Below, in pieces: positions 935-45,734 of a stretch of 64,000 nt of DNA. Position numbers and translations under genes: made by a program. The DNA is from Rhizomucor pusillus. Its lineage: Eukaryota > Mucoromycota > Mucoromycetes > Mucorales > Lichtheimiaceae. The stretch covers positions 1 to 64,000 of the forward strand of contig FWWN02000599.1 of assembly GCA_900175165.2 (NCBI GenBank), written 5' to 3'. The notes under the pieces were generated by a model. That model was not told the DNA's origin and did no database searches. It saw only the letters and a list, made by a program, of their open reading frames with translations. Every line of letters starts with the position of its first letter. Positions within the stretch are counted from its first letter, which is position 1.

Positions 935-1874
935 TGTGGCGTTCGAAAGTCTGTTCACGGATAAAGAAGAAAGTAGCAGCAGCTTATGCTCCTCATGCAC
1001 AATGGGCTGATGATTTTCACCCCCGCCACTATTTCGAACGTGATCGGTCGTTTCTTTCATCCTCTCTCTCTTTCAACTAATCCCCCACTCGATATTGTCT
1101 TTGGATTTATCATGGCTCCTCAAGGCAACGCTACCGCTGGTGCCACACTGTTGAGGCTATAATTGCATATTTCCTTCCGACGTTTCCGACTGCTGCGAAC
1201 TTTACAAACTGAGACTGATCAGGGCGGACGCCGACAAAGTAGGACCCAACCTCCATGAACTTTTCGGTCGCAAGTCCGCTCAAGTACCCTGATTCAGCTA
1301 CACGGACGCTAAGTAAGAACAAGGGTGTCATTTGGGACGAGCAGACGTTGTTCGATGTAAGGAAACTGGGATATGCCATATCAGCATGAAGTCAAGATGT
1401 TCAACAGGAAACAACTTTGGACGATGACGAACTGTTAGGAATGTTTAATTGCAGAAATAGCCGCATACAAAGAGCAAAATAATCGTAGAAAAATGTTGTC
1501 TGCTGCGTAGTTTGCCAATTACAGTTTCAGCCTTGTTGCTGCTTTGTTATACTGTCCACTGTTTTTTTCGAGGAAGAGGTGTATGATCTTTAAACGAATG
1601 TGAATCAATATAGGTTCAGTTGTATCTTGTAGGTAGCGTTGTATCCAACGCTGTATTTCACATGCAAATGACAGGATCTTCCAGATTTTACCTTCACCTT
1701 ATCTCCTCTAACAGCAATCTGGTAATACAGATAGCTTAATTGCCCGACATCTTCAAATATACACTTTTTCCCAAAAGTAATGTCGAGACTATGAAATTTT
1801 ATAATATATTTATACAGCAAAATTGCAAATTGCAGCGACATTAATTTTTGGAAAAGGTGTACACTTACCGGAAA

Positions 1875-2129
1875 GCATTTCGTCAAAAATCAAATTCGCG
1901 TTCCCCAAAAATAGATGTCGTGTGCTTACAACACTGAGGACTAAATAAATAGGTAAGCGTTTCGGCCTACGTCTTTCTTGTTTCTACCATTTCACACACT
2001 TAAAATACCACACCGAAGCACACATTTCAAAATGTATAACCAGTTTTTCTATGAAGATGGGCAAGGCAACGTCGTTGATGAATATGGCAGGCCTGAGCCC
2101 ATGGACTATCTCGTTGATGAGGAGCTTTA
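1875..2129 (+). repeat. Left arm of 255-bp inverted repeat
   Basis: By direct reading, this arm is the reverse complement of 2229-2483 with one mismatch that I can see (CATTTCGTC against CATTTTGTC). It carries the transposon 5' region and the first ~30 transposase codons in the plus orientation, where the frame ends at the TAG beside the loop. The 99-base spacer (2130-2228) is unique to one orientation and continues the transposase frame of the right arm. Confidence 0.95.
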
Positions 2130-2228
2130 GGATTTGAATCAGGATCTATCCGTAGATCTGACTCGCGATCGCCCTCGAAAGGCATGCTGGTCAACTGCCG
2201 TGTGCGGGAACTTATCGTTTCAAGAGCA

Positions 2229-2483
2229 TAAAGCTCCTCATCAACGAGATAGTCCATGGGCTCAGGCCTGCCATATTCATCAACGACGTTGCCTTGCCCA
2301 TCTTCATAGAAAAACTGGTTATACATTTTGAAATGTGTGCTTCGGTGTGGTATTTTAAGTGTGTGAAATGGTAGAAACAAGAAAGACGTAGGCCGAAACG
2401 CTTACCTATTTATTTAGTCCTCAGTGTTGTAAGCACACGACATCTATTTTTGGGGAACGCGAATTTGATTTTTGACAAAATGC
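2229..2483 (-). repeat. Right arm of 255-bp inverted repeat
   Basis: Reverse complement of 1875-2129. Read on the minus strand it holds an untranslated leader and ATG MYNQFFYEDGQG of the IS630-type transposase. The frame then runs through the loop before it meets the inverted left arm. The near identity of the arms implies recent formation or gene conversion between them. Confidence 0.95.
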
Positions 2484-2859
2484 GACACCAATTTTCACTG
2501 GAGGCGACATTACTTTCCGGGAAGAGTGCACCTTGACAACCATGACAGTGGAATCTCGCTGTGATAACAACTCGTATCTGGCAGATGCTTAACCATTACT
2601 GGTCCACGGCCTTTTAACAGTCAATTGAGATGACAGAGGATAATAACGCCAAAGATAAGGACATCTCTATAAATATAACTGAATGATGGACGAATAAAGA
2701 ACATCATCTTTTTGAGTCTCGTTGACTTATTCGTCCCATGTTTGATATTACAGGTGCAAATTTCCAAGTCCTCCATTTCGTCAATTCGCTTTCCAGGTCT
2801 TGCTACATTTTCATCGTATCAATTCAAGTGAAAGGAATATCACCTTGTTTCCCATCTAA

Positions 2860-2932
2860 ACTTGTTTTTCTTGCCAACTGGTCCATTTTCCGCGTAACCG
2901 GTCCATTAACTGGTCTACTAACTGGTACACTT
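2860..2932. repeat. Short imperfect tandem ACTGGTC-type repeat
   Basis: Four spaced near-copies of AACTGGTCCATT occur: AACTGGTCCATT, AACCGGTCCATT, AACTGGTCTACT and AACTGGTACACT. No coding or structural role is evident. It sits inside the expanded intron. Confidence 0.5.
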
Positions 2933-3429
2933 TTTATTGGTTGTTTTAATAAATTTTAATGAGGTCTAGTTATATCATACTGTTCTATTATGCTGCTTGG
3001 GTTTTTTAATCCGTTATCATACTGTAACATGGCAAGTCGTGACGACACGTAAAAAAAGAAGGTATGCCAAGTGAAGTCAATATACGCAACATCCACATTT
3101 ATTAAGATAAGCTCTTTCAAGGAGACCGTCATCCATTTCCTCGTTCACGCAATTTGGCTGGTCGTTCATGTTCAGATCAGTCATGCTGCAACCTCTTGCA
3201 CCCGATCTCCTCCACTCAGGTCCCACTCAGTGGAGGTTTTGTTGAAGGACTCGATAAAAAGTGTCTCAGTTCATACCCTTATTCCCAGACCGGTCTTTCC
3301 TTTCGTTTCCTTCCTTCTCTTTTTTCTTTCAATTAAATGTTTGCTTCTTATTCTTATTCGGATCTTCAGAGACGATGGATCTCTCAACTGCTTGCAATGT
3401 GTAAAGAAGCACAAATACCCTGGACTTCA

Positions 3430-4650: not shown

Positions 4651-5706
4651 TTATTGTATAAAGTTACTCTTCTCTGCAACCATGATCACGCCTGTAGCAT
4701 TGATCCAGTCTTTCTCGATAGCCACTTGCTCCTGTACCAGAAGTGTCCTCAATATCGATCTGTGCACTTCGGTATCTTGCAAATTTCTAGGAGAAATGGT
4801 TCCCAATTAGCATGACTCGTCAACCTCACTTAAAGTCCAATCAATCGTACTTACAAAACATAACTAGCAAACTGGAAAAGATTGACTGTTCTGGCATTGA
4901 TGTGGACATTTTTCTGTCCAAATACCTTTTTCGTGCCGTCGAGCATCTCTTTAAAGCCGAACATTGCATGTTCGTGACCGTGATTCATGGGATGATGTTT
5001 CATAGCCCGCTCGAAGAATGTGTTCCATCTCTTGAAGGAATCGACGGACATATCCTGTACCAGCAGCGACGCTATTTCGTGTTCTGGATGTCTATGCGAT
5101 ACCTTGGCAATGTGCAGCAGATCGATTCTATCCATAAACCAGCCGACGGTGCGTTCGTTCAGGGCTTCGAAATCGACATCTTCGATAACAAGGACTCCGT
5201 CTGTCTTCATCAGTTCGCGTGCTTTGCCCAGAGTCTGTCGTAATGAATATATATAATTAAAGCTTTCATCAAGGAGCAGTTTCATGGTTGTAATCTTTTT
5301 ATTACTTACTTCTTCCAAGGAAGCGACGTGATGGAGTGACTTTGTAAAGAGAATGGCATCGAAAAGTTGCTCTTCGGTGCTTATATCGGCTACCGTGGCC
5401 ACACGGTAGTCAACACCACCATCAGTTTTAGCCTTTGCTTGGTTGATTGCAGACTCGGAAGGATCAATAGCTGTAATCTGAATTCTGTCTTGGTATTCCT
5501 TCTTTAACAACTCTGCAAAATATCCAGGACTACATTCTGTTGTCGTTAGTTCTAAGATATCATGCATGAACGTCCTTGATTTCTTACCCGCAGCCAACTT
5601 CGAGCAGCTTGAAATTTCCAGGGAATTTGGAACCCAAAAGGTTTTTGAGGCGTCCCATGAAGGGAATGTGAGCTATAGCAGGGATGGTTTCGTAAGAGGC
5701 GGTCAT
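4651..5706 (-). CDS. Class I SAM-dependent methyltransferase, paralog A
   Basis: Four exons. Exon 1 (5706-5588) starts MTASYETIPAIAHIPF and ends in LLEVGCG, which joins PGYFAELLKKEY of exon 2 to make the SAM-binding motif I (LLEVGCGPG). Exon 2 also holds ITAIDPSESA (motif II acidic residue) and LFDAILFTKSLHHVASLEE (motif III/IV region). Exon 3 carries MKTDGVLVIEDVDFEAL and a His-rich stretch MKHHPMNHGHEHAMF. Exon 4, after a donor at FASYV and an acceptor CTCCTAG, gives NLQDTEVHRSIL and ends WINATGVIMVAEKS then NFIQ. Introns are short with GTAAG donors. The fold is a standard Rossmann methyltransferase; the substrate is unknown. Two paralogs lie at 44.7 and 46.0 kb on the other strand. About 250 residues, a normal family length. 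Confidence 0.85.
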
Positions 5707-40036: not shown

Positions 40037-41665
40037 GCACTCTTTTCCCAGAAATCTTTGCGCGCGATACACAGAAAAAGTTGTCGCACAGAAGCGAAAT
40101 CTATTTGCATGGCGAGCAGATCACTTTTTTTGATATTCTCATATGGATATAGTTATGGTGAATTGGTAGAGAATAACGGAGAGGAACGTCACAGTTTCTC
40201 TCCGTTGCGACAGTTATCTAAGCATCTGTAGGAATGAGACACAAAGCTTTCGAAATCGTTCAGCTTTAGACTATAGGATGCTTCGCTGATTCGAGTCATC
40301 AACGTTTCATTTTCCAAGAACCTGTTGCGCTTAACTTTGCTCTTAACAACCGACCAGAACTGCTCAATGGGATTGAGCTCAGGCGAATATGATGGAAGAT
40401 GAGCACATCTATACCCTCGAGTCTCGATATACTTAGAAATATCATCAGCCTTATGAATAGGAGCATCATCCATTACCAAGTGATGGCCCTTCATGTGCTC
40501 ATGTTTATCCATCTCATCCATGGTAGCTTTAAGGAAGCTTAGATAATGTCCAGTTACAGTTCCTTTGCTTATAACTTCAGAATGACCAGCCCTCCTTCTT
40601 TTCTTGGCCGGTGCCTGTGGGAGTCTCAAGCTGCACTTAATCAGACCAGATGCAGAGACTGCACCCAAGATAGTGGTCGTTTTTGCTCTTGTTTTTGGCA
40701 CTGTAACCACTGCAGAAGACCCTTTTTTTGACCATGCCATGCTGCGCTTCATGTTAATATGGAAGGCAGGCTCATCAAGAAAGACACAGTTGTTTTTAAA
40801 GTCAATGTCGGTCATGTCCCATCTGCGCACCCAGTCAAGGCGCTCTTGAATCTTAGCCTCGCTATTTCTGTCTACAGGTTGAAACCGAGCTTTTTTAATG
40901 ACAAGTTGCATTCCTTCCTCACAAATCGATATACAGTCGTTCTGGACACCTTCACTCCCTCAAATCGTTGAAGCAGTCGCTCCATCAACTGTTCTAGGAC
41001 AATCGACGGATTCTCGTCAACGCATTCTAAAATAACTTTATTATGCTCTTCATTAAGGATACACGGACGACCAGCGCTTTTACGCTTTTTAAAAATGCTG
41101 TCAAGGTCCTTTTCATACTGTAACGCCCATCTTTGTGCTGAACGAACATGTATTCCTAGCTGCTTTGCAGCAGCTGTCGCACTCAAAACCTTCTCAAACA
41201 TCAGTTTGAAAAATCTCGCCTTATCTTGGTTCGTGTAAGTTGTGTAGGCTCGCTTGGGAGTCCGTTCTCTCATGCGAATGTCTTTGTTCTTTGGCTCGTC
41301 GACATGCGTAGCAACAGACTCATGGTTGCGGTCGCAAGATATACCACGCAAATATTCCGTGTGAGAACTAACGGTTTGAAGAGCGTACACTTCCTCTTCA
41401 ACGACATAGTCCATGGGCTCAAGACAGCCATACTCATCAACAACATTGGCCCTGCCCATCTTCATAGCGAAATTGGTTGCTCATTTCGATTTTAGAAAAT
41501 GTATAGATGAATAAAGATGAAGAAAAACCACAGCGCCTGAGAAGCTGACGTGTTTATACAGGGATGGATTTGCCAAACCTTCTTGTGCGACATCTTTTCC
41601 TGTGTAGGCGACATTTGATTTATCATCGTGCGCAAAGATTTCTGGGCAAATACAACTTCTATTTT
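40037..41665. mobile_element. Nearly complete IS630/Tc1-mariner element
   Basis: Near-terminal inverted repeats CCCAGAAATCTTTGCGCGCG at 40047 and its partner at 41625-41646 match over 22 bases with one difference. GTCGC/GCGAC motifs recur next to both ends. The interior is one transposase gene on the minus strand. The outermost bases are uncertain: on the right, further terminus-like sequence (CTCTTTTCC read inward) lies at about 41708-41720. This is the best-preserved copy of the family whose scraps lie at 1.9-2.5, 10.4 and 31.6 kb. Confidence 0.85.
40189..41484 (-). pseudogene. IS630-type DDE transposase with two frameshifts
   Basis: ATG at 41484 (MSNQFRYEDGQG), then a one-base insertion before NVVDEYGCLEPMDYVVEEEV. 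Two helix-turn-helix units follow: SATAAAKQLGIHVRSAQRWA and ENPSIVLEQLMERLLQRFEG, VKVSRTTVYRFVRKECNLSL. A second frame change occurs in the A6 run at about 40890, where one more A would join SLKK to ARFQPVDRNSEAKIQERLDW. The DDE domain is then complete: NNCVFLDEPAFHINMKRSMA (Asp 1), HHLVMDDAPIHKADDI (Asp 2), LPSYSPELNPIEQFWSVVK (Glu, about 34 residues later). The stop follows RNGEKL at 40189. All three catalytic acids are present, so only the two indels disable it. Protein length would be about 430 residues. Confidence 0.9.
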
Positions 41666-42013
41666 TGTTAACCTGCGACTTCAGAATTGGCGGGGTGCGA
41701 CTTTGATTTTGGAAAAGAGCGTATGATTTCTCCCTTCTTCGAAATGGACTCTTCGGGAGAAAAGACTACGAGCTTAATTTCCTTTTTGTTATACGTATTT
41801 GGGAAGATTATGCTTTGTATTCAGATTACTATATCCTTGTATAACCAAAATAAAATTAAGTTCGTAGTCTTCGTTCTAACCATACATCAAATAAGGCATG
41901 AGATCCCCGAAAGAGTCCAGTTACGAAGAAGGGACATCTCGAAACTTATTTTGACTGAGTTGGTATCCGTTCCTTTCTATTCTATAGCATCGCTCATTCT
42001 TTTACTTGAATAT

Positions 42014-44731: not shown

Positions 44732-45734
44732 ATGACTGCCTCATATAAAACCATCTACGCTATGTGCCATGTTCCTTTCTTGAATCTTCTCAAGAAACTT
44801 CAAGCTTCTCGAAGCTGGCTGCGGGTAAAGGAATCAAGGATGGTCATACATTGTATTTCAGACTAACAGCTACAATATGTAGCTCTGGATACTTTGCAGA
44901 ATTGATCAAGGAGGAGTATCAAGACAGGATCCAGGTCACAGCAATTGACCCTTCCGAGGACGCAATCAGCAAACCAAAAGCCAAAACGGCTGGCAACGTC
45001 GACTATCGTCAGGCCACGTTAGCCGACCTAAACAGCGAGGACCAGCTTTACGATGTCATCCTGTTTACGAAATCACTCCATCACGTTGCGTCTTTGGAAG
45101 AGGTAAGAAATCTAGAATACGCACGTCTGAAAACGATCAGTGAATCTATTCCACACGGCAGACTCTAGAAAAGGCGCACGAGTTGCTGCAGACAAATGGC
45201 ATCTGCGTTGTCGAAGAAGTCGATTTTGATGCCATAGATGAACGTAGCGCCCGCTGGTTTATGGATAGAATCGATTTGCTGAATGTTGCCAAGGTATTGC
45301 AAGGACATCCGGAAGACGAAACGATGGCGCTGCTATTGGATACTTCCATTGATAGCTTCAAACGATGGAACACGTTTTTCGAGCGAGCTATGAAGCATCA
45401 TCACATGAATCACGGTCACAATCATGCCATGTTCTACTTTAAGGAGATGCTCGACTGCATGGAAAAGGTATTTGGAGAGGAACGCACCAAGATCCATGCC
45501 AGAGTACCATTCTTCTACCAATTTAGCATCTACATCGCGTAAGTACCGGTGTTGATTGGGTTGAACCAGGAAGAGCAAATCATGCTAATAGAGCCAATCG
45601 TTTCTTCAAGAAACTTGGATGACAGCGATGTGCACAAATCGATATTCAAGATGCTCCAGGCGCAAGAGGATATTGCTATTGAGAAAGGCTGGATCAACGC
45701 GACAGGCGTCATTGCAGTTGCTGAAAAGATATAA
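44732..45734 (+). pseudogene. SAM methyltransferase, paralog B, frameshifted in exon 1
   Basis: Exon 1 (44732-44824, MTASYKTIYAMCHVPFLN...) is 93 bases against 119 in copy A, a net loss of 26 bases between the start and the FKLLE segment. The splice sites are conserved (GCGG|GTAAAG), so the downstream frame is shifted and motif I is lost in the natural reading. The rest is well kept: SGYFAELIKEEYQDRIQVTA, IDPSEDAIS, LYDVILFTKSLHHVASLEE, GICVVEEVDFDAIDERSARW, MKHHHMNHGHNHAMFYFKEM. The last exon gives NLDDSDVHKSIFKML, WINATGVIAVAEKI and a TAA at 45732. It resembles copy A more than copy C by eye. Either it is recently dead or it uses an unrecognised alternative start. Confidence 0.75.

Follow-up and report, generated by a model that had tools for sequence, protein, structure and literature searches.

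It has long been asked how a genome comes to recognise a transposon that is new to it. The locus described here carries a near-perfect palindrome built of 5′-terminal sequence of an IS630-type transposon, which, a first-pass annotation had suggested, could be a natural hairpin-RNA locus or equally an inert fold-back insertion, and the question is whether such a structure feeds silencing or is a fold-back remnant. The window analysed in this work is the first 64 kb of contig C52 (124,663 bases), part of a genome of 24.45 Mb in 353 contigs. The host had been taken for a member of the Mucoromycota, and a UBR1-like protein encoded in the window agrees with this, since its closest named relative among the best 120 of 224 matches comes from Zychaea mexicana (Mucorales, Lichtheimiaceae), at 49% identity. 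Judged from its sequence, the C52 locus is a genuine fold-back remnant, unusually clean, whose anatomy is that of a known silencing trigger.

The two arms of the palindrome, 1875-2129 and 2229-2483, pair at 254 of 255 positions around a 99-nt loop, exactly the arms, single mismatch and loop that had been reported from the sequence; the sole mismatch opposes C1881, the seventh base of the left arm, to T2477. The arms form the core of a longer element, the parts of which are the following:

1862..2528, no strand assigned: whole fold-back element, 667 bp; the 5′ termini of 20 rows of other copies align at the same point
1862..1874, plus strand: left terminus, 13 nt, CACTTACCGGAAA, diverged from the right terminus
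1875..2129, plus strand: left arm, an inverted copy of the transposon 5′ end
2130..2228, minus strand: loop, the transposase frame running on from the right arm to the junction at 2129/2130
2229..2483, minus strand: right arm, the native 5′ end of the transposon remnant
2484..2528, minus strand: native outer 5′ terminus, 45 nt, ending in GGGAAGAGTG at 2528
2027..2380, minus strand: chimeric frame of 117 aa, spanning the central junction

The element ends in CACTTACCGGAAA on the left and CTTTCCGGGAAGAGTG on the right, flanked by TA (1860-1861) and CA (2529-2530), respectively, the latter being perhaps a decayed TA. In the left arm a leader, a TATA-like box (1942-1949), an ATG at 2032, 32 codons and a TAG completed at the junction follow one another; the right arm holds the corresponding TATA-like box (2409-2416) and an ATG at 2326 on the minus strand. 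Leader and first transposase codons had been claimed for each arm, and they were found there, with the first 32 codons in both arms and about 65 in the right arm plus loop, up to 2130. Both halves of the element therefore represent the transposase-side (5′) end, in facing orientation. Compared with the right end, the left end lacks one block of 30 nt plus 2 nt near the tip, and its terminus is either an old 3′ terminal inverted repeat (TIR) or a damaged 5′ TIR; the 3′ termini of most relatives were not recognisable when looked for. The long RNA duplex that had been anticipated is borne out as a predicted fold, positions 1850-2540 giving one long hairpin of -534.9 kcal/mol against -176.1 (sd 5.65) for 20 shuffles.

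Immediately to the left of the element lies another, smaller one:

1762..1859, no strand assigned: separate MITE, 98 bp, bordered by TA left and right; flanks compared in 10 other copies

The right TA of this MITE (1860-1861) doubles as the left TA of the fold-back element. The possibility that 1762-1859 is the palindrome's own end was rejected, as its copies in the genome identify it as a separate MITE: with 40 of 118 candidates scored, all 40 match, its own copy included, and the 39 others have 86-91% identity. The ends of the MITE resemble the ends of the IS630-like family. Upstream of it, a decayed cytochrome c gene with stops (1227-1436; best PDB match E 8e-9) confirms the former cytochrome c gene noticed at first reading; a Pfam cytochrome c search of the genome gave no match, perhaps owing to introns.

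The nature of the transposon can be read from its relatives in the same genome. In 20 sampled rows of other copies (the near-duplicates L017 and L018 both counted), TA precedes CAC at the 5′ terminus in every row, with TA followed by CACTC in 18/20 and by CACTCTTTCC in 15/20. Further copies of the family had been noted within the window, and related sequences are present at 40.0-41.7, 10.6-11.2 and 31.6-31.9 kb, including the following:

40038..41720, minus strand: longer copy, the 40-kb relative, with the transposase split between overlapping frames 40189-40911 and 40872-41465

The 40-kb relative contains the domains DDE_3 (PF13358, E 2.7e-26) and HTH_32 (PF13565, E 1e-9), and its positions 41317-41448 align at 71% with 2160-2291 (132 nt, including part of the loop). 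A genome search with the transposase protein yielded 156 matches from the 150 of 372 candidates that were scored, and a search with the right arm and terminus yielded 48 from 40 of 132; several relatives have long uninterrupted frames, among them one of 478 aa at C118 and one of 430 aa at C75. By these similarities the element is classed as an IS630/Tc1-mariner derivative, a DDE_3-type transposase occurring in its longer relatives, and the IS630-type 5′ end named in the first-pass annotation holds, given the TA in 20/20 rows and the two domains of the 40-kb relative.

Single-ended relatives are common in its own genome, but the palindrome itself was seen once among the scored matches (40 of 253 candidates in one search, 40 of 132 in another), and the loop, searched alone in the genome, had no other DNA match. 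In the list of right-arm matches, near-perfect palindromic pairing occurs at C52 only, among the scored matches, and the idea of a family of such palindromes was dropped, none being found among them. A palindrome scan covered 71 fetched loci and the window, 290,174 bases with overlaps included (C36 was fetched twice, as L069 and L071), at a threshold of at least 90% over 40 nt and less than 5 kb between copies; a short loop was seen at the C52 locus only, the pairs in L047, L063 and C36 lying 1.6-2.5 kb apart. Within the window, 10 inverted pairs of at least 40 nt were listed; in the nine besides this palindrome, complementarity is 71-86% and the copies are separated by 8.7 kb or more. One inverted pair in the window joins 4890-5550 to 44862-45503 at 73-80%, its first member lying in a frame with a methyltransferase domain.

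Comparison with the relatives indicates which half of the element was copied. Right arm and loop follow the order seen in ordinary copies, and it is the left arm that is inverted, so that the element consists of two facing transposase-side ends. At the mismatch, the right-arm form CATTTTGT occurs in 6/20 other rows and the left-arm form CATTTCGT in 0/20, which places the change in the left arm. The copying is young relative to its surroundings, because the arms differ at 1/255 sites, whereas pairwise distance puts the nearest fetched relative, C316, at 11.4%, and the MITE alongside departs from the majority of ten other copies at 9/103 positions, a drift of about 9%. FastTree, applied to 21 aligned 5′ ends, groups the two arms as sisters that join C220 and C17. 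The left terminus is diverged and lacks the 30 + 2 nt despite the near identity of the arms, as expected if this terminus pre-existed. The right arm itself is not especially decayed, since its departure from the 80% majority at 11/228 columns is low within the 3-21% range of other copies; both arms lack a leader block, but so do L006, L007 and L012, and the gap is hence no mark of decay. At the leader site that we take to be a TATA-like box, both arms read TAAATAAA, and TATATAAA is found in 10/19 other copies, the remaining nine varying too.

The explanation that we favour, and consider probable, is a fold-back derivative of an IS630/Tc1-mariner element that lost its body and had the gap filled by an inverted copy of its own 5′ end. 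A starting copy with its 5′ end at 2528, pointing left, would have lost its body; the resulting gap would have been closed from the other end by copying that 5′ end in inverted orientation, through break repair or template switching that, we infer, confused the two inverted ends of the element; and the new joint would have formed inside the transposase gene at 2129/2130. The palindrome would have formed in place and would now be mostly inert, and the RNA of any transcript across it would be expected to form a 255-bp duplex, a Dicer substrate. A recent rewriting of the left part from the element's own right end fits the observations. At the central junction C24 alone of 20 relatives aligns through the last base, with about 2 nt of shared sequence, so the microhomology is that of one distant copy; a median of 2 bp is reported for animal Pack-TIR filler junctions (PMC8277862). 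The apparent recent rewriting of the left part and the junction homology of about 2 nt together favour break repair or template switching. The right-hand TA of the element is not intact, which counts against this origin, and a source element for the inverted copy was not found; the young arms could be explained equally well by transposition of a ready-made fold-back or by arm-arm gene conversion.

Facing or inverted 5′ ends are met elsewhere in the family. At C14 (L022:2-1794) a sequence runs from TTA-CACTC to GAGTG-TAG, each terminus being a 5′-type end bordered by TA; the facing ends lie about 1.8 kb apart, outer edge to outer edge, with an end match of 37 nt at 95%, and the arms are weaker and more diverged than those of C52. 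Over about 1.2 kb the C14 interior does not match the transposase of the 40-kb copy. Parts of this interior are found again at C36 (84-92%), next to a single recognisable 5′ end, and another part at about a dozen further places. At C91 (L021:70-1700) two facing 5′ halves of the transposase gene, about 72% identical, may be an old fold-back or two insertions, the left terminus lying outside the fetched stretch. Facing 5′-type ends were also observed at C18:105526-108885, about 3.4 kb apart, and at C133:125435-130455, about 5.0 kb apart. A permissive scan of 41 loci (including L043 and L049, which overlap others) revealed inverted repeats 1.0-2.6 kb apart in nine, the longest of good identity being those of C66 (141 nt at 94%; L063:551-691 and 2256-2396) and C90 (170 nt at 91%; L047:1015-1184 and 2861-3025). 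These end-to-end inverted repeats, perhaps the outcome of end-to-end conversion, imply that the two ends of such elements can pair. The C66 and C90 repeats are longer than those of the 40-kb copy. C36 also contains an inverted repeat, 99% identical over 188 nt or more (L069:430-617 and 3078-3265), which flanks 2.46 kb and reaches the end of the fetched stretch; it has no match to the IS630-like 5′ end and perhaps represents the TIRs of another transposon.

A natural hairpin-RNA locus, whose transcripts would fold and be cut by Dicer into small RNAs that would silence sibling copies in trans, is an unlikely reading that draws on analogy with Mu killer. Mu killer is a maize MuDR in inverted and internally deleted form, for which a hairpin RNA product has been proposed (PMC3440606), and the architecture of C52 resembles it, with both halves transposase-side and an inverted partial transposase gene. 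The Dicer-based silencing assumed in the first-pass annotation has its counterparts in this genome: a Dicer match at C30 with two RNase III stretches and a Dicer_dimer domain on one contig, two Argonaute genes with Piwi domains, at C250 and C229, and two places with RdRP matches, C2 and C169, at each of which a single stop, possibly due to an intron, interrupts one stretch. Hairpin transgenes trigger silencing efficiently in Mucor (PMC4395119).

Potential targets for such small RNAs exist, the arm sharing at least one perfect 21-mer with 20/56 fetched loci, densest over the first codons, and matching 33/56 when up to one mismatch is allowed; C316, C133, C125 and C18 are among the copies with shared perfect 21-mers. 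These 56 loci are the 40-kb copy and the 55 left after 12/67 had been dropped as the locus itself or as overlapping another (two other locus comparisons lost 7/26 and 10/67 likewise); they include nine MITE-only loci and the near-duplicates L009/L011, L017/L018 and L050/L051, and had been chosen for similarity to the fold-back. However, 18 control probes, the 5′ ends of other copies, match 5-21 of the loci each, and since such probes reach 20-21 in loci picked for fold-back similarity, the arm is not set apart. An unusually broad trigger was accordingly rejected, three of the 18 controls reaching 20 or 21 loci and 15 fewer, and the family-wide trigger envisaged at first is not supported, the arm standing in the upper range of ordinary copies and not outside it. 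The 40-kb copy, which had been named as the target on which to check for matching small RNAs, has no perfect 21-mer in common with the arm; the longest run of identity is 16 nt, four 21-mers match when one mismatch is allowed, and the copy is not supported as a likely small-RNA target.

Further points against a silencing locus are that it is a single palindrome in one assembly and that both arms carry a variant of the TATA-like box, albeit one of several, as 9/19 other copies also lack the commonest form. In individuals where Mu killer silences, antisense transcripts start from a promoter inside the locus, and read-through transcripts from the flanking gene did not go with silencing (PMC3440606), so the variant box and a read-through origin weaken an easy analogy for C52. 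A bacterial-type promoter and terminator scan, not meaningful in a fungus, was set aside. The palindrome may possibly silence, but an inert fold-back remnant is more likely than a silencing locus. A wider proposal is unlikely as a whole: a Tc1-mariner family of a Mucorales fungus would repeatedly make double-5′ derivatives through confusion of its ends, and one recent product would feed the canonical Dicer pathway and hold its siblings in check, as a fungal counterpart of Mu killer of independent origin in a different transposon superfamily. The top-ranked results of a literature search included no hairpin silencing locus derived from a transposon in a fungus, though this is no proof that none exists, and the excerpt of PMC11943222, on transposon RNAs in Mucor, does not mention Tc1 or mariner.

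It is improbable that the element is a MITE-like mobile fold-back that transposed as a unit beside the MITE by means of two 5′-type ends. Such a history would account for the TIR-like termini at both ends, with TA on the left and CA on the right, and C14, with its TA-flanked double 5′ ends and an interior partly recurring at C36, hints that such elements can spread; C36, however, has one recognisable 5′ end only. A mobile family should be represented by several copies with target duplications, and none were found among the scored matches, where neither the palindrome nor its loop has a second copy in its own genome; moreover, the terminal region is short of the 30 + 2 nt on the left, and on the right an intact TA is lacking.

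Still less credible is a fold-back chimera produced by amplification or assembly, even though the palindrome lies 1.9 kb from the end of contig C52 and the chimeric part of the 117-aa frame occurs in none of the 21 homologues returned. Five of the 21, including the four of highest coverage, were aligned, and none of these bears the chimeric part, with P0140, P0130 and P0128 passing the junction without close similarity. The frame consequently offers no independent confirmation of the locus, since none of the homologues returned carries its chimeric part; this absence is of little weight, because gene prediction may pass over a frame of this kind. A simple fold-back chimera should continue into one flank, but different flanks bound the two sides of the palindrome, the arms differ by one base and in their outer 13 versus 45 nt, and the scan of 290,174 bases showed no second near-perfect palindrome with a short loop. 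The palindrome is probably not an artefact. Chance is ruled out by the match of the arms, the shuffled folds and the scan of fetched loci.

The preferred fold-back derivative remains of interest for the initiation of silencing, as a rearranged transposon copy has been proposed to supply the silencing trigger in the case of Mu killer (PMC3440606). The relatives suggest that double-5′ derivatives recur in the transposon family of C52, at up to three loci. If they do, accidental self-made triggers could be a possible general by-product of cut-and-paste transposition, and C52 would make them testable in an early-diverging fungus with RNAi genes. If the locus is silent, C52 would be an ordinary fold-back remnant, though an unusually clean one.

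Fold-back elements and long-TIR MITEs are known derivatives of DNA transposons. C52 resembles them as a non-autonomous remnant composed mostly of inverted terminal sequence around a short unpaired centre, and differs from them in that it was found once, has one damaged terminus and carries coding sequence in its arms. With Pack-TIR or gap-filled TIR elements, as characterised in PMC8277862, it shares an interior replaced by copied DNA and short junction homology, but the filler at C52 is the element's own inverted 5′ end and not host DNA. A close parallel in anatomy is found in Mu killer, both ends of which derive from the transposase-side terminus and in which two partial transposase copies end in an inverted duplication (PMC3440606): in C52, too, both halves are transposase-side, and part of the transposase gene (32 codons per arm) lies in an inverted duplication. 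Unlike Mu killer, C52 belongs to IS630/Tc1-mariner and not to Mutator; its arms comprise 255 nt with 32 codons as opposed to about 1.3 kb of mudrA; its right terminus is transposase-side, whereas the damaged left-hand 13 nt may represent a 3′ TIR; its possible targets are many and diverged; and it would work as Mu killer does only if it were transcribed.
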